From an uncultured Caryophanales bacterium (GTDB lineage: Bacteria; Bacillota_I; Bacilli_A; RF39; UBA660): DNA of 46,166 nucleotides. The notes below the pieces were generated by a model. The model had not been told where the DNA came from. It searched no databases and saw nothing but the letters and a program-made list of their open reading frames with translations. Location: NCBI GenBank assembly GCA_946623125.1, contig CAMOQR010000008.1, forward strand, positions 1 to 46,166. Direction: 5' to 3'. The position numbers were made by a program, and so were the translations under genes. Of this stretch, positions 33,314-45,130 are shown one piece after another. How positions within the stretch are numbered: the first letter of the stretch is position 1; every line of letters starts with the position of its first letter.

Positions 33314-34966
33314 ATGAGTAAAATTAAAATATTTGCATTAGGTGGATTAAACGAAAATGGAAAAAACATGTATGTGGTAAATGTAGATGAAGAAATATTT
33401 GTATTTGATGCCGGTTTAAAATATGATAATGACATTAATTTAGGAATAGATTATATCATTCCAAATTTTGATTATTTAATAAAAAATAGAAAGAAAATCA
33501 AAGGAATCTTTTTAACACATGGTCATGATGGAAATATGGGAGCAATTGCTGATGTTTTAGAAAAACTCCCAGAAATACCAGTATATGGAACAAAGTTAAC
33601 CCTTGAAATAGCAAAAAATGATTTCACAAAAGAATTATTAGAAAAAACAAAATTAATAGAAATAAAGCCACATAATAAAATAGATTTTGGAAAGAATTCT
33701 ATTTTTCCAATAAGTGTTACTCATTCCATTCCAGACTCTGTATGTTATGTATTATATACACCAGATGGAGCCATTGTATATACAGGAGACTTTGTATTTG
33801 ATTCAACTATGATGGAATCATACAAAACAGATATTGGAAAACTAGCATATGTTGGAAAGCAAGGAGTTTTATGTTTATTATGTGAATCATTCTATGCTGA
33901 TAGACTTGGACATACATCCCCACATAACCGTGTAAGAGGCTTTATGAGAGATGTATTAAGGAAAACAGAAAATCGTATTATTGCAACTGTTTTTCCAGCA
34001 CATTACTATCGAATTCAAGAACTTTTTGATGAAATATCAAAAACCCATAGAAAGATAGCAATTATGGGAAAAAAATTACAAGAAATGATTAATAAGGCAA
34101 TAGAGGAAGGATATCTAAAAATAGATAAAACCAAAATTGGAACACTAGCAGATTTAGAAAGTAAAAATGTTGTAGTATTAATATCAGATGAAAAAGAAAA
34201 ACCATTTGCTAATCTAGAAAGAATTATTAAAGGATTTGATAAATACATTCAAATAAAAGATACAGACACGATATTTATCACAGAACCAAGTTATCCTGGA
34301 ATTGAAAAAAGATTAGCAACTATTATGGATGAGATTGCTATGCTTGGTGCAGATGCAATTAGTCTATCAAGTAAAAAGCATCTACAACATCATGCATCAC
34401 AAGAAGATTTAATGTTAATGATAAACTTAATGAATCCAAAGTATTTCTTTCCAGTAAAAGGAGAATATAGAAATTTATATACAAACGGTGAAATAGCAGA
34501 AGAATTAGGAGTACCAAAAGAAAACATTATCTTAAAACTAAATGGAGATGTTTTTGAAATGGTAGATGGAAAGAATACGAATTCATTAGAACATATCGAT
34601 GTTGATGAAATTTTAATTGATGGAAACAATAGTGGGGATATTGGAAACCTAGTCTTAAAAGATCGAGAAATGCTAGGGGAAAATGGAATTGTAATTATTA
34701 GTTGTACTCTAGATAAAGAAAGCAAAGAAATCATTGGAGGACCAGAGATTCTAACAAGAGGATTTGTTTATGTCAAAGAAAGTCAAGAATTAATGGAAGC
34801 AACAAAGAAATTATCACATGAAGTAATAGAAAAGAATATTGAGAAAAATGCTAAAAGAGTTGATTACTCAAAAATAAAAAATGATGTAAGGGAAGTCTTG
34901 GGTAAATATTTCTATCAAGAAACAGAATCAAAACCAATGATTATAACAGTGGTTCAAGAAGTATAA
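33314..34966 (+). CDS. rnjB: Ribonuclease J2-like protein (degenerate metal site)
   Basis: A 550-residue metallo-beta-lactamase / beta-CASP protein of the RNase J family, with the family's C-terminal domain. RNase J1/J2 complexes degrade and process mRNA from the 5' end. The catalytic motif, usually HxHxDH, reads HGHDGN here. The later HxSGH region reads HLQHHASQEDL, and the usual PVHGEYR reads PVKGEYR. The metal site therefore looks incomplete, as in B. subtilis RNase J2, the weakly active partner of J1. The call as J2 rests on these losses. An active J1 is expected elsewhere. Confidence 0.8.
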   Translation: MSKIKIFALGGLNENGKNMYVVNVDEEIFVFDAGLKYDNDINLGIDYIIPNFDYLIKNRKKIKGIFLTHGHDGNMGAIADVLEKLPEIPVYGTKLTLEIAKNDFTKELLEKTKLIEIKPHNKIDFGKNSIFPISVTHSIPDSVCYVLYTPDGAIVYTGDFVFDSTMMESYKTDIGKLAYVGKQGVLCLLCESFYADRLGHTSPHNRVRGFMRDVLRKTENRIIATVFPAHYYRIQELFDEISKTHRKIAIMGKKLQEMINKAIEEGYLKIDKTKIGTLADLESKNVVVLISDEKEKPFANLERIIKGFDKYIQIKDTDTIFITEPSYPGIEKRLATIMDEIAMLGADAISLSSKKHLQHHASQEDLMLMINLMNPKYFFPVKGEYRNLYTNGEIAEELGVPKENIILKLNGDVFEMVDGKNTNSLEHIDVDEILIDGNNSGDIGNLVLKDREMLGENGIVIISCTLDKESKEIIGGPEILTRGFVYVKESQELMEATKKLSHEVIEKNIEKNAKRVDYSKIKNDVREVLGKYFYQETESKPMIITVVQEV

Positions 34967-34981
34967 AAGGAGGTGTCAAGT

Positions 34982-35452
34982 ATGACGACAAAGGATTTAA
35001 TAAAAAAATATATACCGGTTGGAGTATTAGGAGTAATGACAATTATTATTGTATTATGTACTTATTTTCCTCCTTTTGGGACAATGATTTGTGAAATGAA
35101 AAGTGCACCAGGGGATATAGATGCGCAATCAACCTATACAGCAAATTTTTCTCTATGGCATGTAGATACCCTAAAGATTACAGAAATTATTTCATCAAAA
35201 GATAAAGAAAAATTAGAAGAATATAAAAAATCCTTAGAAGAAGATAACAATAAGTTTAAAAAGTTAAATCACTTCACAAATACGATAAGTATAGAAGATG
35301 AAACAATTACAAATACCACAACAATTGATTATGATAAGATTGATAAAAAAGAATTGAAGAAAATTGAAAAAAATTTTTCTAATCGAATGATTCGAATAGG
35401 AGTACTAAAAAAAATATATACAAAGAATGGAGCAACATGCAAATACGCATAA
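34982..35452 (+). CDS. Small membrane-anchored protein, 156 aa
   Basis: One N-terminal membrane helix (PVGVLGVMTIIIVLCTYF), then an extracellular domain of about 110 residues. The pattern YTANFSLWHVDTLKITEIISS ... TTTIDYDKIDKKELKKIEKN is somewhat like the DUF1307/YehR lipoprotein family, but there is no lipobox, so I do not assign it. AAGGAGGTG lies 6 nt before the ATG at 34982; an in-frame GTG at 34973 is inside that site. It follows the RNase J-like gene by 15 nt and is probably cotranscribed with it. It is the last host gene before the island. Confidence 0.6.
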   Translation: MTTKDLIKKYIPVGVLGVMTIIIVLCTYFPPFGTMICEMKSAPGDIDAQSTYTANFSLWHVDTLKITEIISSKDKEKLEEYKKSLEEDNNKFKKLNHFTNTISIEDETITNTTTIDYDKIDKKELKKIEKNFSNRMIRIGVLKKIYTKNGATCKYA

Positions 35453-35496: not shown

Positions 35497-35534
35497 GTCT
35501 GGGTAGTTAAATGGATATAACAAGTCTCTCCTAA
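35497..35534 (+). pseudogene. 5' half of host tRNA-Arg(CCU), cut in the anticodon loop
   Basis: Acceptor strand GTCTGGG, D arm GTTA-AATGGATA-TAAC, anticodon 5' stem AGTCT and loop CTCCTAA are all present. After the loop the sequence changes to island DNA and no T arm follows. Joined to 45053-45089 the parts make a complete tRNA-Arg with anticodon CCT: AGTCT pairs with AGACT, and GTCTGGG pairs with CCTGGAC with two wobbles. Confidence 0.88.
35527..35534 (+). repeat. Left attachment core (TCTCCTAA)
   Basis: The 8 bp shared with 45045-45052; it covers the anticodon loop of tRNA-Arg(CCU). Confidence 0.75.
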
Positions 35535-35590
35535 GACTTCCTAAAAAGTTGAAAAATAGGTAAAAAATAGTCTTTAGAGCATTGATATAT

Positions 35591-35640
35591 CTAATGGATA
35601 GAAATTTAAAGAAAAATTAGTGTCGCAGAAATGTCGCGAA
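35591..35640 (+). repeat. Left arm-type integrase-binding repeats
   Basis: CTAATGGATAGAAA at 35591, then two TGTCGC units (TGTCGCAGAAA and TGTCGCGAA) at 35621 and 35632. The same elements recur in the same orientation at 44872-44909. The spacing of tandem short direct repeats inside both ends is what Tn916-like integrases bind with their N-terminal domain. No coding region covers it. Confidence 0.7.
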
Positions 35641-35705
35641 TAATTTTTTAAAAATCAAAAAATTTAAGCATTTATTTTAACAAAAAAGTTAGAATAAATG
35701 TATAT

Positions 35706-35782
35706 GTTCTCGTAGCGTAAGTGGATAACGCAACTGCCTCCTAAGCAGTAGATTACCAGTTCAAGTCTGGTCGGGAACACCA
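35706..35782 (+). tRNA. tRNA-Arg(CCU), complete, carried by the island
   Basis: A full 77-nt cloverleaf with encoded CCA: acceptor GTTCTCG / CGGGAAC, D arm GCGT / ACGC, anticodon arm ACTGC-CTCCTAA-GCAGT with anticodon CCT, 5-nt variable loop, T arm ACCAG-TTCAAGT-CTGGT, discriminator A. All stems pair. It differs in most stem bases from the split host tRNA-Arg(CCU), so it is not a simple duplicate. It reads AGG codons and probably replaces the gene broken by the insertion. A terminator follows. Confidence 0.95.
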
Positions 35783-35790
35783 TAGAAATT

Positions 35791-35821
35791 AACTATGTGT
35801 TATATAGCACATAGTTTTTTT
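35791..35821 (+). terminator. Terminator of the island tRNA
   Basis: AACTATGTG / CACATAGTT stem with an 8-nt loop and T-run. The stem arms are identical to those of the terminator behind the host tRNA 3' half at 45099-45130; only the loop differs. Confidence 0.88.
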
Positions 35822-35884
35822 GTGGTGAAATGGAGGTGGTCGATTATATTAAATAAATAAAAAATAAAGATAAGGAGGAAAAGA

Positions 35885-36711
35885 ATGAAAAATTGTGAAG
35901 TAATTGCAATTGCAAATCAGAAGGGTGGAGTCGGTAAAACAACTACTACATTTAGTTTAGGAGTTGCTCTGGCTAATATGGGTAAGAAGGTATTATTAGT
36001 TGATGCAGATCCTCAAGGTGATTTAACTACTTATGCAGGGTGGCACAATACTGATGATATTCCAGTAACTCTAGCAACACTAATGGAACGTTCTATTAGA
36101 GATAGAGATATTAATCCTAGAGAAGCTATTTTAAAGCAACATGAAGGTGTGGATGTACTTCCATCTAATCTAGAATTATCTAGTACGGAAGTTGAATTAG
36201 TTAATGCAATGAGTAGAGAATATACAATTAAGAATTCTCTTGAAGCATTAAAAAAGATTATGACTATATCATAATCGATTGTATGCCATCGCTTGGAATG
36301 ATTACTATAAATGCTTTGGGTGCATCAGATAAAGTAATTATTCCAGTTGAGTCTCAATTCCTTGCAACTAAAGGAATGAAACAGTTAATAAATACAGTTC
36401 TTAAAGTTAGAAAGAACATTAATCCAAATCTTCAAATTGGAGGAATGTTACTTACTCTTGTAGAACAAAGAACAAATCTATCTAGACAAATAAGACAAGA
36501 ATTACAAGAGTCTTATGGAACTATATTTAAATTATGTGATACTCAAATTCCACGAGCAATCAAAGTTGCAGAGTCAACAAGTTTTGGAAAATCAATATTT
36601 TCTTATGATAAGAATTCTAAAGTAGCTAGTGCTTATCAAGAATTTGCTAAGGAGGTAGTTAAGGATGGAGAAAAAGAGCATTCTAGATCCAATGCCTTTT
36701 ACAGTAGATAG
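35885..36711 (+). pseudogene. parA: ParA/Soj-type partition ATPase, interrupted by a -1 frameshift
   Basis: The N-terminal part has the deviant Walker A motif [14 protein letters not shown] and DADPQGDLT. The frame then ends at a TAA at 36272-36274. In the -1 frame the sequence continues without loss through [21 protein letters not shown] (Walker B region) to the end at 36711. Joined, the protein would be full length, about 274 residues. The shift falls exactly on A AAA AAG at 36250-36256. Either a single A was lost (decay or sequencing error) or the ribosome slips there. AAGGAGGA precedes the start. Followed by a parB start with a 47-bp overlap. Confidence 0.85.
36250..36276 (+). promoter_or_regulatory. 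Slippery heptamer A AAA AAG followed by a hairpin in parA
   Basis: The heptamer is in the correct phase for -1 slippage (frame TTA AAA AAG). It runs directly into GATTATGA-CTATA-TCATAATC, a perfect 8-bp hairpin at 36256-36276. The stem starts at the last base of the heptamer, closer than in known stimulatory hairpins, so its role is uncertain. Confidence 0.35.
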
Positions 36712-37280
36712 TTTCTTTACTACTCAAGAACAAAGAGATGAAGAAAAGAAAGAAAAAGTAGAAGAAATTAGTATTGATTTATTAGATGAATTTCCTAATC
36801 ATCCTTTTAAAGTATTGAAGAATGAAGAAAAAAACATAAAGAATGAAATCAAAAGATATCAAAGAATGATTACTGATGAAAATGAAAAGCAGGAACGATT
36901 ATTAGATATGTATCTAGATGGGATTGTCGATTTACCTACTTTTGAAGAATTTCATAAAAAATATAGATCTAAAATAGAAACATATAAAGTAGAAATTGAT
37001 GAATTAGAGAAAAGTTTAAAACGTCTAGAACCAATACAAGTAAAAAAAAGAAAAAGCAATGGAATCAGTGAAGAAGATATTAGATATCGGATACAATGGA
37101 ATAGATGAGCGATTAATAGAAGAAGTTGTAGAGAAAATAATAGTTCATGAAAATTATTTTGAATGGAAATTAAATTTTTATGATGAATTAAAATCATATT
37201 GTCCTATGACTTATAATTATTATTCTAATATAATGCAAGAATACATAGAAAGATATAACACTACAAACTTAATAAGATAA
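36665..37280 (+). pseudogene. parB 5' end joined to a serine-recombinase 3' end, frameshifted
   Basis: Residues 1 to about 52 (MEKKSILDPMPF ... ISIDLLDEFPNHPFKVLKNEE) match the start of ParB-type partition proteins. From about 36821 the frame changes to the C-terminal coiled-coil of a large serine recombinase (LLDMYLDGIVDLPTFEEFHKKYRSKI). The frame breaks in an A-rich stretch near 37045; the recombinase sequence continues in another frame from about 37050 (ILDIGYNGIDERLIEEVVEKIIVHE) to 37280. Neither the ParB DNA-binding domain nor the recombinase catalytic domain is present. This is debris of at least two genes. Confidence 0.8.
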
Positions 37281-37359
37281 AAAAATACTGGTTATTCCAT
37301 TTTTTTGTGTTTTTAAACTAATATATGATATATTTAATATAGATAATAGAGAGGTATAT

Positions 37360-38022
37360 ATGAAAAGAAAAGTAGTAAAAATTATACTAGTATTATTAAT
37401 GATTATTTCACTAATTAATATATTTATATGGTTTTATGAAAATAATAAAACAAAAGAAATAGTTACTAAAGCAAAAAAATATATAAATATAGAAAATAAT
37501 ACTATTAGTCCAAAAATAAAAAATATAAATGAAGATATAATTGGATGGTTAATAGTAGATAATACAAATATTAACTATCCTGTAGTACAAGGAAAAAATA
37601 ATGAGTTCTACCTAAATCATGATTTAGATAAAGAATATAATAGTGCAGGATGGATTTTTATGGATAGTAATAATAATCTAGATGATCAAAATATAATCAT
37701 ATATGGTCATCATAGAAGAGATGGGAGTATGTTTGGGTCAATTGATAATCTTCTAAATAAAAATAAAGGAGGAAAAATCAATTTAATAATAAAAAACAAA
37801 AAAAATATATATAATATTTTTTCTATATATAAAACTGAAAAAAATTATAATTATCGTGAAAAAAATTATAGTGATTTATATAAAAAGACAGCAGAATTTA
37901 AAAAACGTAGCATAATAAATTATAATATCGACATTACAAGTAAAAATCAAATAATAACACTATCTACATGCGATAATGACAATAAAAATAGAATAGTAAT
38001 ACATGGGATAAAAATTGAATAA
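37360..38022 (+). CDS. Class B sortase
   Basis: A 220-residue membrane-anchored transpeptidase. N-terminal anchor KIILVLLMIISLINIFIWFY. The sortase fold has IIGWLIVDNTNINYPVVQG, the catalytic His in IIYGHHRRDGSMF, the catalytic Cys in TLSTCDN, and the Arg in NRIVIHG, all in class B style. Class B sortases join NPxTx-type signals to peptidoglycan cross-bridges. The next gene encodes a protein with a C-terminal NPETW signal, a likely substrate. GAGAGG precedes the start. First gene of the island surface cassette. Confidence 0.93.
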   Translation: MKRKVVKIILVLLMIISLINIFIWFYENNKTKEIVTKAKKYINIENNTISPKIKNINEDIIGWLIVDNTNINYPVVQGKNNEFYLNHDLDKEYNSAGWIFMDSNNNLDDQNIIIYGHHRRDGSMFGSIDNLLNKNKGGKINLIIKNKKNIYNIFSIYKTEKNYNYREKNYSDLYKKTAEFKKRSIINYNIDITSKNQIITLSTCDNDNKNRIVIHGIKIE

Positions 38023-38080
38023 AATACTTTGTTTTTTATTTAAAATATTATATAATTAAATAAGGTAGGAGGTGGATTAA

Positions 38081-39202
38081 ATTTGTGCTAGTAAAAAAAG
38101 ATTATTTTTACTTGGAATAATATTTTTTATAATGTTTAGCATCTCAGGCATATATGCTTTAACTAATGATGTAATAAATAACACGGAAAGTACCATTTCA
38201 ACCTCTTACGTTGATATTAAATTAGAACAATATCAAAATGGTGAACCATATACAAAAGAAAATGAAGTAGTTATGCCAGGAGAATTTATTCCATTAAATA
38301 CTAAAATAAATAATCTTGGAATAGATTGTTATGTAAGAGCTAAAATTACATATACATTAAATAATACAGAATGTATTGAATCAAACTATATTAATGGAGA
38401 TTACAAGAATTGGACCAAAAAAGATGATTATTACTATTATGATTCTGTATTAAATCAAAGTGAAGTAATAGACTTATTTGATACAATCCAAATACCTAAT
38501 GAAATAATTAATGAATCATCAGGTGATAAACTAATTGTTCATATATTAGTTGAAGCTGTACAAGCTAAGAACTTTGATGGTAATTGGAACGAGGTAGATA
38601 TTAAAGAAGCTGTAGATAGATCTTATTCTATGGATTCTGATGGTAAATCAGAAATAATCTATGAAAATAATGCAGATAAGTATATTGATATAGGAGATGG
38701 CTTTTTTAATAACTTAGGTGGTTTATTACCAGGAGATAATATAGAGGACCAAATTAAAATTAATAATAACAGTTCTAATAAGATTAAATACTTTTTATCA
38801 ATTGATACAAAGAATTTAACAGATGAAGAAATAGAATTACTAGAAAATGTTAATATAACAATAAAAAATAGTAAGGGTGAAGAGTTATACAAAGGAAAAT
38901 TAACAGAAGTAAGTAATCTGCTCTTAGGTATATATAATAGTGGTTCTAATGGTATAATTTCTTTTACTATTTCAATACCAAGTAATCTTAATAATGAGTA
39001 TAGTAAGATTGTTACAAAAATAATATGGGTGTTTTCAGTTGAAGAAGAAAAAAGTGGCATTAACCCAGAAACATGGGATTTGCGATTTGATTGGTCTATG
39101 ACACTTTTCATTTTTTCAGCATTAGGACTATTAGTAGTCATGATACTAGAAAAAAAAGAAAAGGATAATATAGAAAATAATAATAAGGAAAGAAGGAATT
39201 AA
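38081..39202 (+). CDS. TasA/camelysin-like surface protein with NPET sorting signal; probable ATT start
   Basis: An in-frame ATG at 38132 would cut into a hydrophobic export segment. Reading upstream gives CASKKRLFLLGIIFFIMFSISGIYAL, a proper basic-plus-hydrophobic signal, but the only start codon with a good ribosome-binding site (AGGAGG, 8 nt away) is ATT at 38081. The export segment, then TNDVINNTEST and YVDIKLEQYQ, resembles SipW-dependent TasA/camelysin proteins. VVMPGEFIPLNTKINNLG parallels MMPGESVTKDPTINNLS in the next gene. The C-terminus is INPETW, then TLFIFSALGLLVVMIL and EKKEKD: a class B sortase sorting signal. I infer it is the wall-anchored base of a fibre. Confidence 0.8.
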   Translation: MCASKKRLFLLGIIFFIMFSISGIYALTNDVINNTESTISTSYVDIKLEQYQNGEPYTKENEVVMPGEFIPLNTKINNLGIDCYVRAKITYTLNNTECIESNYINGDYKNWTKKDDYYYYDSVLNQSEVIDLFDTIQIPNEIINESSGDKLIVHILVEAVQAKNFDGNWNEVDIKEAVDRSYSMDSDGKSEIIYENNADKYIDIGDGFFNNLGGLLPGDNIEDQIKINNNSSNKIKYFLSIDTKNLTDEEIELLENVNITIKNSKGEELYKGKLTEVSNLLLGIYNSGSNGIISFTISIPSNLNNEYSKIVTKIIWVFSVEEEKSGINPETWDLRFDWSMTLFIFSALGLLVVMILEKKEKDNIENNNKERRN

Positions 39203-39205
39203 ATT

Positions 39206-39856
39206 ATGAAGAAAAAGAAAACAATTTTAGCAGCACTTGTACTTCTACTAGTAGTTGCAGTAGGAGGAGCAATTGCATATTTCACAGACACTGATACTAA
39301 AACAAACACATTTACAATTGGTAATGTAGATATCAGTTTAACAGAGGATGGTTGGGATGCTTTAGCAGATGCTAATGATAATGACATTCCTGATGTAGCA
39401 GAAGATATGATGCCAGGAGAATCAGTTACAAAAGATCCAACAATTAATAACCTATCTACTAAGAATCCAGCTTATGTATTTGCAAAAGTAGAAGTACCAT
39501 GTACAACAATAGTTGCACCAGCAACAACATCAGAAGAATTATTTACATATACAACAAATGCAGGATGGACTGAATTATCTTCAGCAGCAGTAGCTTGTAC
39601 TAGTGGTGGAACAGCAACTCATGTTTATTACTATGGAACAGGAGGAACTTTAACTGCTTTAGCAAAAGCAGCAAATGCATCAACTCCAACACCAACTTCA
39701 AACCCAGTATTTAGTAGTGTAACATTACGTAGTACATTAAAAGGAAATGAAGGATTAACTGGAAATAAAAATATTGTTGTAACTGGTTATGGAATTCAAA
39801 CTGAAGGTTTAACAAGTACTGCACCAGCAGATGTTTGGGGAAACTTCTCTAACTAA
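39206..39856 (+). CDS. TasA/camelysin-like fibre protein with SipW-type signal
   Basis: A 216-residue exported protein with the SipW-dependent signal: MKKKKTILAALVLLLVVAVGG followed by AIAYFTDTDTKTNTFTIGNVDISL, the hallmark of TasA, CalY and related proteins. MMPGESVTKDPTINN is the conserved turn of the family. No sorting signal at the C-terminus. Proteins of this type polymerise into matrix fibres in Bacillus. Two Cys residues (EVPC, VACTS) could form a disulphide. It starts 3 nt after the previous stop and precedes sipW, as expected for its peptidase. Confidence 0.88.
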   Translation: MKKKKTILAALVLLLVVAVGGAIAYFTDTDTKTNTFTIGNVDISLTEDGWDALADANDNDIPDVAEDMMPGESVTKDPTINNLSTKNPAYVFAKVEVPCTTIVAPATTSEELFTYTTNAGWTELSSAAVACTSGGTATHVYYYGTGGTLTALAKAANASTPTPTSNPVFSSVTLRSTLKGNEGLTGNKNIVVTGYGIQTEGLTSTAPADVWGNFSN

Positions 39857-39861
39857 TTAAT

Positions 39862-40350
39862 ATGAAAATAATAAAAGGAATAATTAACGTCATAACGACG
39901 TTAATTATTATCATTGGAGGAATATTTTTAATACTTTATGTATGTGGAATTGTCCCATATGTAGTATTATCTGGTTCTATGGAACCAACTATAGAAACTG
40001 GAAGTTTATGTTTTATAAATAAACATACAAATTATAATAAAATACAAGAAAAAGATATTATCGCTTTTAAACATAAAGATGGAACTTTAGTTACTCATAG
40101 AGCAGTTAAAGTAACTAAATCTGGAATAAAAACAAAAGGTGATAATAATAAAGATATAGATGGTAATATTGTAAAAAAGGAAAACTTTGTAGGCAAGAAT
40201 ATATTATGGATACCAAAAGTAGGATATATAGTAAAAAAATTTCAAACTACTAAAGGAGTAATAATATTAATTACTTGTGTAGTATTACTATTAGTATCAG
40301 GTCTTCTATTTGGAGAAGATGATAAAAAACCAAAAGAAAAAAATAATTAA
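39862..40350 (+). CDS. sipW: SipW-type signal peptidase I
   Basis: An ER/archaeal-type signal peptidase of 162 residues. N-terminal helix, catalytic Ser in SGSMEPTIETGSL, and catalytic His in LVTHRAVK (His instead of Lys, which distinguishes SipW from SipS-type enzymes). A second helix lies at the C-terminus (ILITCVVLLLVSGLLFG). SipW cleaves TasA-type signals. It starts 5 nt after the TasA-like stop with no clear ribosome-binding site, so translation is probably coupled. Confidence 0.93.
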   Translation: MKIIKGIINVITTLIIIIGGIFLILYVCGIVPYVVLSGSMEPTIETGSLCFINKHTNYNKIQEKDIIAFKHKDGTLVTHRAVKVTKSGIKTKGDNNKDIDGNIVKKENFVGKNILWIPKVGYIVKKFQTTKGVIILITCVVLLLVSGLLFGEDDKKPKEKNN

Positions 40351-40372
40351 ATATAAAGGAAGGTGATGAAAT

Positions 40373-42733
40373 ATGAAGAAAATAAATCCAACTAGTATTT
40401 TATTAGTTGTTGCTATTTCATCACTTTTAGTTATACAAGGAATATATGGTTATATTACTAAAGAAACAGAATCTCTTGAAAATACTTTAACAGTTACTCA
40501 AGAAGCTACTTGTACTGTTATTCATGAATTTATGGATTTAAATGGTACAACTTATTCTGAACATAGTAGAAATAATATAACTGATTTACAAATTGGTGAT
40601 ATAATTCAACCACCAGTTTTGGATGTAGAAGGATTTGAAGCACCACAAGTACAATCAGTTACAATAGATAAATTTTCTAATACAGTTACATATAGATATA
40701 TAAGAAAAAAATATACTTTAACAATTAATAATAGTACTTATGTAACAACAACTACACCTAGTGGAATATATTATTATGGTCAAACAATTCATTTAGTTGC
40801 AGATGCAACTGATGGAAATGGTAATCCTTTTGTTAAATGGAGTAATAATGAAACTAATCCAGATTATACATTCCAGTTAACAAAAAATACTACTATTAAA
40901 CCATTATATGATGAAACATATATAATTACATATGTTCCAAATAATGGAAGTAGTTCATTTACAGAAGAAGTTATTCAAACTGAACCAATTAATACATTCC
41001 CAGATGTAGAATATAATGATTGTAGTGGTGGAACAGGTACTTACGAGCAACAAGGATGTACATATGTATATAAACTACTAGGATGGTATAAAGATTCTAA
41101 CTTTACAAATAAAGTAGATGAATCTTTTGTTCCAACTGAAGATACAACATTATATGCAAAATGGAATAAAGTTTATTTTAGAAATGACGGTCCAGTAGTT
41201 TTTGATGGTGATGATATAATTTATACTGATGTATTTCTATATAATGCAGAGAATGCAAATAAGGACTTTATAGCTACATTTACAGTTGATGATTATACGG
41301 GATATAATCCAACTAATAATAAAGATAAAAGAGCAACTATATTCCAAGATATGAATGAACAAAATCCATATCTAGGAATTCAATTTTTCCATGATGATAA
41401 TAGTTATTACTTAAATGTTAACTCATCTGCTAATAATGCAGATAGAGTTAAAGATCCAAATACAGGATATACAACTGGACAAAAAGTAATATTAAAAAGA
41501 GAAAATGGAATAGTATCATATAGTTATAATGATGGATTAACATTTACTCCTACTGTTAACTTTAGTAATTTTACAGCATATTTTGATTATCCAGCAACCT
41601 TCGGAGCTGGACTAGATGCAAATAAAAATCCATGGAGATATTTGATTGGTACATTATCAGATATGAGTGTAGAGATAATAGAACCTCCAACTTATACAAT
41701 TCACTATGATGCAAATGGTGGAACTGGACAAATGGATGATCAAATTATAGAATTAGGAACATCTACTTCATTAACAACAAATGCATTTACAAAAACAGAT
41801 GCAACATTTGGTGGATGGAATACCGCACAAGATGGTTCAGGTACTAGTTATCCAGATAATTATTCAATTACAAGTGATCTAGGAAATGCAGATGATGTAA
41901 TAACATTGTATGCTCAGTGGATAGAACCAGTACACTACTATGTACATTTTGATCCAAATGGTGGAACAGGTTCAATGAATAATCAAGAGTTTACTTATAA
42001 TGATCCAGCTGAACCATTAACTGCAAATACATTTACAAGAACAAATTATGTATTTAAAGGATGGAATACTGCAGCAGACGGATCTGGAACACATTATGAT
42101 AATGAAGAAGAAGTTAGAAATTTAAGTAATATAGATGATGATGTTGTAACACTATATGCAGAGTGGTGGAAGATAGAATTTATTCGTACTGGTGATGTAG
42201 TATTTGATGGTACAGCTAATACATTCATTGATACAGGATTAAATATATTTAGTTCAACAAATATTGATAAAGATTTTGAAATTAGATTTACATTTAAATC
42301 TGTTGATAGTGATCAAATGCAATATGTAACTGGAAATCAAAAACAACCAACTATATTTAATGCAAAAGATGAATCAAACAGTACTTATCCAGGAATGAAT
42401 GTTCGTTTCAGTGGAAATATTACAACAATTACTCCAACATATAGATGGGGTGGTTCTACAACTAATGTAGGAAATATAGCAGTATCAAATAAACCAATTG
42501 AATTCATCTATAGAAGAAAATCAAACAATAATAATGAAAAAATTATTACAATAGAATATAAATATAATAATTATGATAGCGGAGAAAGAACTACAATTAA
42601 TCAAAGTAGTTGGCCTCTAAATCAACCATTCGCAACTAATGTGGCATTTGGTGGATACTTCGATGGAAGTAATCAACCAGGAAGATTCTTCAAAGGAACG
42701 CTTGCAGATATCTCAATAATAATGGAAGAATAA
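40373..42733 (+). CDS. Large secreted protein with InlB-type repeats and lectin-like domains
   Basis: A 786-residue exported protein. The N-terminus (ILLVVAISSLLVIQGIYGYITKETESLENTLTV) has the SipW-type pattern seen in the TasA-like proteins. InlB B-repeats (Listeria-Bacteroides type): about residues 186-264 (ITYVPNNG ... LYAKW), 442-516 (IHYDANGGTGQMDD ... LYAQW) and 523-598 (VHFDPNGGTGSMNN ... LYAEW). Two homologous beta-sandwich, LamG/lectin-like domains at about 266-438 and 600-786, both with VVFDG near the start and (I/F)(G/K)GTL(S/A)D(M/I)S near the end. No anchor or sorting signal, so it probably associates with the TasA-like fibre. An adhesin or matrix protein is likely. AAGGAAGGTGATG precedes the start. 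Confidence 0.85.
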   Translation: MKKINPTSILLVVAISSLLVIQGIYGYITKETESLENTLTVTQEATCTVIHEFMDLNGTTYSEHSRNNITDLQIGDIIQPPVLDVEGFEAPQVQSVTIDKFSNTVTYRYIRKKYTLTINNSTYVTTTTPSGIYYYGQTIHLVADATDGNGNPFVKWSNNETNPDYTFQLTKNTTIKPLYDETYIITYVPNNGSSSFTEEVIQTEPINTFPDVEYNDCSGGTGTYEQQGCTYVYKLLGWYKDSNFTNKVDESFVPTEDTTLYAKWNKVYFRNDGPVVFDGDDIIYTDVFLYNAENANKDFIATFTVDDYTGYNPTNNKDKRATIFQDMNEQNPYLGIQFFHDDNSYYLNVNSSANNADRVKDPNTGYTTGQKVILKRENGIVSYSYNDGLTFTPTVNFSNFTAYFDYPATFGAGLDANKNPWRYLIGTLSDMSVEIIEPPTYTIHYDANGGTGQMDDQIIELGTSTSLTTNAFTKTDATFGGWNTAQDGSGTSYPDNYSITSDLGNADDVITLYAQWIEPVHYYVHFDPNGGTGSMNNQEFTYNDPAEPLTANTFTRTNYVFKGWNTAADGSGTHYDNEEEVRNLSNIDDDVVTLYAEWWKIEFIRTGDVVFDGTANTFIDTGLNIFSSTNIDKDFEIRFTFKSVDSDQMQYVTGNQKQPTIFNAKDESNSTYPGMNVRFSGNITTITPTYRWGGSTTNVGNIAVSNKPIEFIYRRKSNNNNEKIITIEYKYNNYDSGERTTINQSSWPLNQPFATNVAFGGYFDGSNQPGRFFKGTLADISIIMEE

Positions 42734-42745
42734 TAATTAATTATT

Positions 42746-42772
42746 AAAAGACTATTTATATAGTCTTTTTTT
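42746..42772 (+). terminator. Terminator of the surface cassette
   Basis: AAAAGACTA / TAGTCTTTT stem with a 6-nt loop and T-run, 13 nt after the stop codon. Confidence 0.85.
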
Positions 42773-42801
42773 ATGTTATACTGATTGTAGTGTGGTAAGG
42801 T

Positions 42802-43950
42802 ATGAAAGAGTTTACTTCTAGTGACACTAAAAAAATAAAAGGAATCGCAATTATATTAATGCTTATTCATCATTTATGGACTTTCCCAGAAAGACTAGTA
42901 GGTGGAGAATTAAATCATTTATTTAATATTTTCGGTGACAGTTCAATATTTATTATAGGTAGTTTTGGACAAATATGTGTTTCAATATTCTTTTTCTTAG
43001 GAGGATATGGAATATATATGCAATCTAAAAAAAGAAATTTTAATATTTTAAATAATTTAAAAAAATTATATATTGCATATTGGAAAGTATTTATAATCTT
43101 TATACCTATAACACCATTATTTTTTATAATAGAAGCATTAAAAGATAAATTTGTATTAATACTATTTTTACTTGCCGCAATAGATTTTATTACTGATGAT
43201 AAAATAGGAGCATTTATAATACTTGGTATTACACTAATAAGTGTAATTATTAGATTTAGTCAGGATTATTCAACATATAAGTTTAATGAAAAATTAAAAG
43301 AACAAATAAGAATATTTACTGATGTAATAAGAGAAGGTAAACAAAAAGAAATTAGACAAGAAAAAGTAATATATGGAGATATTATTACATTAAGTGCTGG
43401 AAGTGTTATACCAGCAGACTTTTATTTATTTGAAAGTAAAGACTTATTTATTAATCAATCAGCTTTTACTGGTGAAAGTGCCGCAGTAGAAAAGAATATT
43501 AATATGGAAAGTGAATCTACATCTATGAATGTTAAACTTGGCTACAAAGCAAAGATGAAAAGAGGAGAGCCATGTGGAACAATAAGTTGCTATGGTTATA
43601 TATGGGATAAGAAAGAAAAAGAATTAAGTCCAACAACTGTTTCTACTGGAAAACAAGAATTAAGAAATTATGTTTTTCCAGAGATAGCATATATGTCTTT
43701 AAAAAAAATTGATGCATTAGTTATACAAAAAATAATAAATAAACTAAGAGATAGATATAAAGAAAGAAAAAATGATAAGGGTGAGCAAGTAAAATTATCA
43801 ATGTCTACTGTTAATAACGTTTATAGATTACTTAGAAAAATACTTAATAAAGCTGTAGCGTGGGGATTTATTGATTCCAACCCAGTTTTAAAAGTAAAAG
43901 CACCTGGAAACTCTAAAGTAGAAAAAAATCTTTTAATAGAGAAGAATTAA
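42802..43950 (+). pseudogene. In-frame chimera of four unrelated gene fragments
   Basis: One open frame of 382 codons joins pieces of four families. Residues 1-108 are the N-terminus of an acyltransferase-3 membrane protein (KIKGIAIILMLIHHLWTFPE; FFLGGYGIYM). Residues 109-232 are a P-type ATPase fragment of the MgtA type, with the actuator motif FTGES but no phosphorylation domain. Residues 237-276 are the linker of a large serine recombinase (NVKLGYKAKMKRGEPCGT). Residues 285-369 are the core-binding domain of a tyrosine integrase (SMSTVNNVYRLLRKILNKAVAWGFIDSNPV). None of the parts is complete. Successive deletions, or an assembly error, explain it better than a functional protein. Confidence 0.85.
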
Positions 43951-44840
43951 TTGAAGTTTTAGAATTATTAAAAAAAGAGGATATTGTAACTGAATGTTTA
44001 TTTACTATAGCTATTTGTAGTGGTTTAAGAAGGGGAGAGTTAGTTGGCTTACATTTAAATGATATTAACTTTGTAAGTAATACAATATCAGTTAATAGAA
44101 CTGTAATATGGGATGAGAGAATTTCAGCATCAATAGAAAAGGAAACTAAAACAAAGGGTAGTGTTAGAGTTGTGCCTGTACCTCTATTTTGTATGGAAGT
44201 TATAAAAGAATATTTGAAATTAAGGGAAAGGATGGTTATAAGATTTAAGAAAACATTTAAAAACTATAAGGAAATAAATAATTTGTTTTTAAATAAATAC
44301 GGTAAGATCATGGGTTCAGATACTGCTTCTGGGAAATGGGGCGATTTTAGAAGGAGATATCCTAATCTAAAAAAAGTATCATTACATGGATTAAGACTTA
44401 GTTATTGTTCTATGCAAATGAATGAAAATTCTAGCCTTTCACCTGCAGATGTACAAAAATTAATGGGACATTCTCAATTATCAACTACCTATATATATAC
44501 ACATTCAAATGAAGATAAGAATGATGCTGCTATTTCTGTTTTTGATAAATACTATAATAGCAACCACGAAAAGAACATTAATTTTAATGAAATGTTATCA
44601 TTATATACAAATCATTTATTTGTTCCGAAGAGTAAATATATGGAATTAATAAACTTTTGTATTCCAGAAGATATTTCTATTATTGAAAAATTAAAAAGGA
44701 TACATGAATATATCAATAATAAATATGATTTCTTTAGTAAAATAAATATTGATATAGTTAATGTTTCAAATATATTTGATTGGCTAGAAGAACAAAAGAA
44801 TATATATGAAAATGAATTTATAATAACTAATTTATCTTAA
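43654..44840 (+). pseudogene. Tyrosine integrase, N-terminus lost and frameshifted
   Basis: The core-binding domain lies in the frame of the preceding chimera up to about 43925. The catalytic domain continues in the -1 frame from about 43929, open to 44840: SFNREELIEVLELL, CSGLRRGELVGLHLNDI (Arg), ETKTKGSVRVVPVP (Lys), LHGLRLSYCS (His, Arg), LMGHSQLSTTYIYTH (His, Tyr nucleophile). All catalytic residues are present. The arm-binding N-terminal domain is missing. About 95 extra residues follow the usual C-terminus. The shift lies on A AAA AAT at 43923-43929. The integrase next to the right attachment site is the probable agent of integration in the tRNA gene. Confidence 0.85.
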
Positions 44841-44844
44841 AATA

Positions 44845-44853
44845 TGATATAAT
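44845..44853 (+). promoter_or_regulatory. Outward TGATATAAT box at the right end of the island
   Basis: TGATATAAT directly after the integrase stop, pointing out of the island. In an excised circle it would read across the joined attachment site towards the island tRNA and parA. The remaining stretch 44841-45044 has no gene; it holds this box, the right arm repeats and AT-rich DNA. Confidence 0.4.
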
Positions 44854-44871
44854 ATTTATAGTTATATAACA

Positions 44872-44909
44872 CTAATGGATAGAAAAAAGTGTCGCGAAAA
44901 TGTCGCGAA
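44872..44909 (+). repeat. Right arm-type integrase-binding repeats
   Basis: CTAATGGATAGAAA at 44872, then TGTCGCGAAAA and TGTCGCGAA at 44890 and 44901. The same orientation and near-identical units as at 35591-35640. Confidence 0.7.
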
Positions 44910-45044
44910 AATTTAAAAAAATGATATAAATATTTTAAAAAATTAATGATTTTTTAAAAATACACTTTAAAAAAATGTTCATATAACGTTGATTTTATAA
45001 TGGATTTAAAATTTTCTGATTAATTTTGAACTATTGGCAAAGAT

Positions 45045-45052
45045 TCTCCTAA
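45045..45052 (+). repeat. Right attachment core (TCTCCTAA)
   Basis: The 8 bp shared with 35527-35534, next to the 3' half of the tRNA. The sequence on its left is island DNA and does not form a tRNA 5' half. Confidence 0.75.
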
Positions 45053-45089
45053 AGACTAATTACGGGTTCGATTCCCGTCCTGGACACCA
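45046..45089 (+). pseudogene. 3' half of host tRNA-Arg(CCU)
   Basis: Anticodon loop CTCCTAA, 3' stem AGACT, variable loop AATT, T arm ACGGG-TTCGATT-CCCGT, acceptor CCTGGAC, then ACCA. The upstream half is 9.5 kb away at 35497. Followed by the host tRNA terminator. Confidence 0.88.
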
Positions 45090-45098
45090 GATAAAAAT

Positions 45099-45130
45099 AA
45101 CTATGTGTATTATTGCACATAGTTTTTTTT
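45099..45130. terminator. Host tRNA terminator, shared with the convergent glycosyltransferase
   Basis: AACTATGTG / CACATAGTT stem with an 8-nt loop and a T-run. The stop codon of the minus-strand glycosyltransferase lies in the loop. Stem arms identical to 35791-35816. Confidence 0.85.

Follow-up and report, generated by a model that had tools for sequence, protein, structure and literature searches.

The 46,166-nt stretch analyzed here, hereafter the window, is the entire contig C8 of a metagenome-assembled genome (MAG; 1.14 Mb, 71% complete, 26.5% G+C) from an uncultured Caryophanales bacterium whose named relatives are gut or rumen MAGs. Near the RNase J gene, the window contains an island of ~9.5 kb (35535–45052) lying inside a tRNA-Arg(CCU) gene (Table 1). 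The two breakpoints have exactly 8 bp in common, TCTCCTAA. When the host halves (35497–35534 and 45053–45089) were joined at this core, ARAGORN recognized a tRNA-Arg(cct) of 75 nt whose stems are all paired, and the rejoined gene is 85–89% identical to the intact tRNA-Arg(CCU) that follows RNase J in three relatives (G005, G030 and G035). Excision, if precise, would regenerate the host tRNA gene. At the left and right junctions themselves, ARAGORN found no tRNA; the target is regenerated at neither attL nor attR, and attL of this island has no 3′-half copy of the target, in contrast to the related elements in G023 and G014.

Table 1. Features of the island and its flanks in the window
Feature	Position	Strand	Remark
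RNase J gene, host anchor	33314..34966	+	tRNA-Arg(CCU) just 3′ of it across the whole genus
DUF1307-like host gene	34973..35452	+	Between RNase J and the tRNA; present in G023 too
Host tRNA-Arg(CCU), dead 5′ half	35497..35534	+	Core included
attL core TCTCCTAA	35527..35534	+	In the anticodon loop
Left arm motif TGTCGC-N5-TGTCGC	35621..35637	+	Same at the left end of G027 and L089
Leader inverted repeat CATTTATTTTAAC-6-GTTAGAATAAATG	35669..35700	+	Directly 5′ of the substitute tRNA
Substitute tRNA-Arg(CCU), complete	35706..35782	+	ARAGORN; CCA encoded
Intrinsic terminator of the substitute tRNA	35791..35821	+	9-bp arms common with the host terminator
parA, frameshifted	35885..36711	+	Intact in G002 contig C203
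ParB N terminus fused to serine-recombinase-C-terminus-like fragment	36665..37108	+	Deletion scar; serine-recombinase part by inspection only
Class B sortase	37360..38022	+	
Surface/secreted protein, no family assigned	38132..39202	+	
SipW-dependent (camelysin/TasA-type) matrix protein	39206..39856	+	
Signal peptidase (S26, SipW-like)	39862..40350	+	
Large surface protein with Listeria-Bacteroides repeats	40373..42733	+	
Chimeric ORF	42802..43950	+	Acyltransferase-3 fragment, Mg P-type ATPase fragment and tyrosine integrase N-terminal part
Tyrosine integrase C-terminal catalytic part	44172..44840	+	Out of frame with the N-terminal part
Right arm motif TGTCGC-N5-TGTCGC	44890..44906	+	Common to most related right ends
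attR core TCTCCTAA	45045..45052	+	
Host tRNA-Arg(CCU), dead 3′ half	45053..45089	+	After the core
Host tRNA terminator	45094..45129	+	

Close to its right end, the island encodes Phage_integrase and SAM-like domains of a tyrosine-family integrase, the gene for which is broken. The 46-kb window has only four TGTCGC hexamers, all in the motif pairs at the two ends, and these pairs are probable arm-type integrase sites. Because the integrases are broken in the window and truncated or frameshifted in G027, integration activity was deduced from the element ends, and we infer that insertion was carried out by the element's own, former integrase. With the integrase broken, the island has probably lost the ability to leave, and any dependency of the host on it would be fixed. 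The cargo is of a surface/biofilm kind (sortase, SipW-dependent matrix protein, signal peptidase and repeat protein). Neither phage structural or lysis genes nor relaxase or conjugation (T4SS) genes were detected among the island proteins scanned, the mobility-related remainder being parA/parB remnants and the broken integrase; the island may be descended from a larger element. The ParB/serine-recombinase-like fusion is common to the window and G002 (L159, 900–1406), with the window copy lacking a further ParB piece, and the chimeric ORF carries three fragments in one frame, that is, several deletion scars joined.

The sole tRNA reported by ARAGORN in the window is the island's own tRNA-Arg(cct), which starts ~170 bp inside the left core. 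The initial annotation had described the island as carrying a complete tRNA-Arg(CCU) that differs from the broken host gene in nearly every stem and ends in a terminator matching the host one 9.3 kb away, and each of these points held. Host and island tRNAs are identical at 53 of 78 aligned positions (about one-third differ), with most stem positions differing. Their terminators lie 9308 nt apart, are 89% alike over 36 nt and have identical arms (AACTATGTG/CACATAGTT). The same terminator also occurs 3′ of the resident tRNA-Arg(CCU) in G033, G001 and G008 and of the host 3′ half in G027; the idea that the shared terminator is something special to the island was dropped, as it follows tRNA-Arg(CCU) in several species.

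The leader of the substitute is nearly identical to those 5′ of the resident tRNA in G031 and G032. By inspection of the RNase J loci (L055–L088), a short inverted repeat commonly stands immediately 5′ of the resident tRNA-Arg(CCU) genes of the genus, its sequence varying by species; such repeats are a possible RNA-processing signal of the RNase J-tRNA transcript. Because resident genes commonly have this upstream repeat and several have the same terminator, the whole tRNA unit looks to have been captured from a tRNA-Arg(CCU) locus within the genus. A promoter of the substitute's own was considered and rejected: the AT-rich block before the tRNA is the inverted repeat. As a search close upstream yielded no sigma-70-like promoter, the substitute is probably transcribed by read-through from upstream. 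A20, A73 and the CCU loop are the usual arginine-tRNA identity features, and all are present in the substitute, which would be expressed and charged.

The RNase J locus was then compared across the genus (comparison set, 39 species genomes). Among 36 such loci, the tRNA-Arg(CCU) is intact in 33, two (the window and G027) have a dead 5′ half together with a different complete tRNA-Arg(CCU), and one, that of G011, stops at the core. A lost resident gene thus came with a substitute in both cases (2/2). The prospect, raised in the initial annotation, that island-free relatives have the island tRNA at the same place was not borne out in general, since they have their own resident tRNA-Arg(CCU) there; the exception is G031, with an island-like tRNA and leader.

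The G027 contig, which is the same contig as 'Bacilli bacterium RGIG5711' from sheep duodenum, has at its RNase J locus the dead 5′ half of a type-A tRNA (GTATCCGTAGCTCAGTAGGATAGAGCAATCGCCTCCTAAG) followed by AGTTTCCTAAAAA and the arm motif; next come a leader and then a complete tRNA-Arg(CCU) of yet another sequence. The core in G027 is CTCCTAAG. The host 3′ half is on a separate contig (C31) and, rejoined with the 5′ half, gives a perfect tRNA. The substitutes of the window and G027 differ at 22 of 77 positions, but all 21 stem pairs are kept in both, with eight double compensatory changes. Decay would not give such a pattern, which points to selective maintenance of the substitute.

A scan of genome contigs for the left junction matched only the G027 contig and L089, a contig from G002 (the rumen MAG hRUG889). 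In L089, a window-type right end, TCTCCTAA, a window-type left end and then the start of the substitute tRNA follow one another uninterrupted, with no host DNA. This is the attP predicted from the window, ~97–98% identical over the last ~370 nt, and can be a circle or tandem junction. The presence of attP and the tRNA start on one contig indicates that the tRNA travels as part of the element. Past the tRNA terminator, G002 contig C203 continues into the parA side (96% to the window), whereas L089 has different cargo there, so the left-end module with its tRNA is common to elements of different cargo. The substitute is linked to the element's ends in three genomes. An order-wide pattern scan of 385 genomes, a set drawn without G027 and G002, gave the window's own genome as its sole match. 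The earlier description of the island as substituting rather than restoring its target therefore stands, as substitution recurs independently in G027 and, in joined-end form, in G002/hRUG889.

Restoring elements do use the same site. G023, G014 and the second element of G027 are related, have similar right ends and restore the tRNA by a 3′-half copy, which makes the RNase J-tRNA site a hot spot with both tandem and restoring elements. Two stacked conventional islands could therefore be imagined, in which the tRNA was restored by an earlier element, the present layout arose through deletions and the full tRNA is the resident gene; the resident gene of G031, 60 bp after RNase J, is indeed an island-like tRNA with an island-like leader. 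We consider this very improbable. A restoring element leaves a tRNA with the host 5′ half, yet here both halves differ; L089 links right end, core, left end and tRNA without host DNA; and G027 has the same layout in diverged sequence. Downstream of the second island of G027 (L165, 16158), core and 3′ half are present in one further degenerate copy, CTCCTAAACGATAGGTCACGAGTT, suggesting an older insertion at the same site.

Several contigs of relatives, L160 (G002 C200), L159 (G002 C203) and L079 (G011 C47), either break off precisely at the core of the tRNA or overlap one another by 55 bases of tRNA and terminator. The assembly graph may have branched at this point, a possible sign that the sample contained tandem elements or more than one integration state. 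Such branching at the core, together with the MAG origin of the window, is what an assembly artefact (a chimeric contig or strain mixture) would draw on. That the host halves rejoin perfectly at the exact core, that arm motifs stand at both ends and that independent MAGs from other projects have the same architecture make an artefact the least credible of the readings weighed here, with hardly any probability left to it. In G011, a displaced tRNA-Arg(CCU) 3′ half lies beside a right end like that of the first element of G027 (L164, C58). It is mismatched with the 5′ half on C47, which fits a dead half undergoing decay, and G011 may hold a further substituting element.

We conclude with high confidence that a decayed tyrosine-recombinase island destroyed the tRNA-Arg(CCU) gene at its anticodon-loop core and that its left-end module supplies what would be a functional replacement. 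In the proposed mechanism, the integrase most likely recognizes the 8-bp anticodon-loop core, which is nearly invariant among the tRNA-Arg(CCU) genes of the genus. Because attP shares nothing with the target beyond this core, insertion destroys the host tRNA. The left-end module consists of the core, the arm sites, the leader hairpin, the complete tRNA-Arg(CCU) and the terminator; its tRNA begins 170 bp in from the junction and is oriented like the host RNase J-tRNA unit. The element would be tolerated because this module supplies a working tRNA. A restoring element would need to match the 3′ half of its target, whereas one with its own complete tRNA would not and could use hosts with differing tRNA stems. 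The targets found are of different kinds, a type-B host tRNA in the window and a type-A one in G027.

The initial annotation had further proposed that the host would depend on the island to decode AGG if no other copy exists. In the window's own genome (71% complete), pattern searches (TGGATA...YTCCTAAR...TTCRA and TCCTAA...TTCRANNC) found no tRNA-like match but the island tRNA and the dead 3′ half, a DNA search found no second tRNA-Arg(CCU) copy, and an RF00005 search returned only eight tRNAs, which is not a complete tRNA list. Nor was a complete CCU tRNA found in G027 besides its substitute. Dependency of the host on the island tRNA is likely, though no more than that in a MAG of this completeness whose tRNA-Arg(UCU) may also read AGG, and it would hold only in the integrated state, which narrows the original proposal.

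The tRNA might also be a passenger, mere cargo that serves the element's own codon needs or is a relic of tandem insertion, with AGG read by tRNA-Arg(UCU) or another CCU gene. The MAG is incomplete, a tRNA-Arg(UCU) that may read AGG is present in the genome, and AGG is rare, although used (13 of 10,752 host codons in the window and 5 of 2,098 island codons). We regard a passenger as unlikely, given that the tRNA has the same position within the left end of the element in all three genomes, that its anticodon is that of the very gene destroyed, that compensatory changes maintain it and that every relative with a complete locus has kept a tRNA-Arg(CCU) there.

Since the substitute keeps the core, it could be attacked in turn. 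The displaced 3′ halves at attR in G025 (C66) and G031 (C8) are of island type. Resident tRNA-Arg(CCU) genes of type B (D-arm GTTAAATGGATATAAC) occur in G000 (the window's own genome), G023, G030, G035 and G005, scattered on the RNase J tree, and type B as one clade is rejected on this single-gene tree (p-AU 5e-10, four changes), so the tRNA was exchanged while its neighbor gene was not. Within the limits of one gene tree, substituting elements would be a natural explanation of the exchange, with homologous recombination as an alternative source. We propose tentatively, as a reading that could well prove wrong, that non-phage islands of one family spread by disrupting tRNA-Arg(CCU) and putting their own copy in its place, each substitute becoming the next target, and that the resident tRNA has been swapped repeatedly.

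The initial annotation had related the island to tRNA-carrying integrative elements, with substitution in place of restoration. The substitution was upheld, but the strategy is not new: it has been published as tRNA-dependent lysogeny of temperate actinobacteriophages (mBio 2024; PMC10865867), including Fionnbharth (K4), Cluster L, Cain, BrutonGaster and Gaia, which act on tRNA-Lys, tRNA-Ile2 or tRNA-Leu and for which the tRNA requirement was shown by experiment. Like these phages, the window island has a tyrosine integrase, an attB in a host tRNA gene and no tRNA reconstruction at attL or attR; the phage cores are 8–17 bp and the phages encode a tRNA of the cognate isotype, matching the 8 bp and tRNA-Arg(CCU) found here (PMC10865867). 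Reconstructing and replacing modes alternate among close phage relatives; phages of the same integrase family rebuild their tRNA, as do the elements of G023 and G014 and the second element of G027 in this genus (PMC10865867). Unlike the actinobacteriophages, the present element is a small island without detected phage genes in uncultured Bacilli, uses tRNA-Arg(CCU) and is known from sequence alone; its substitute, which contains the core, is placed 170 bp away from the junction and 3′ of the host's own transcription unit. The island is said to work like tRNA-dependent lysogeny and is not filed as a member, since the element is not a temperate phage.

Rhizobium vTRX32-1-like phages likewise combine a short core (12 bp, in tRNA-Leu) with a complete replacement tRNA, but their replacement is without the core motif, an absence proposed to block additional insertions (PMC8631192); the window substitute keeps the core. 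Lj965, a Firmicute prophage of Lactobacillus johnsonii cited in PMC10865867, is said not to rebuild its tRNA and to encode the cognate one, as the window island does, and differs in being a phage. Conventional tRNA-restoring genomic islands (Islander, PMC4383910) share the tyrosine-recombinase insertion in a tRNA gene and the displaced 3′ fragment, and the elements of G023 and G014 and the second element of G027 belong to this kind; the window island supplies the whole gene and has no 3′-half copy at attL. A non-exhaustive search of open-licence papers found no non-phage island with such tRNA replacement. No viral contig had a copy of the left junction, and phage records match the island sequence in the tRNA alone. 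One unannotated phage contig (OR846604.1, Enterococcus phage Efs 1-1-1; L171) encodes a tRNA-Arg(CCU) without CCA.

While the principle was already published for phages, the present case is distinguished by a non-phage island, tRNA-Arg(CCU) as the target and a substitute that keeps the core. The recurrent cases, the joined-end form and the relatives with intact sites extend the 2024 phage strategy to genomic islands in another phylum. They suggest why complete tRNA genes ride on islands and how the tRNA-Arg(CCU) of any host can serve an element as target regardless of its stem sequences. They also suggest how a conserved translation gene may come to depend on mobile DNA or be replaced by it.
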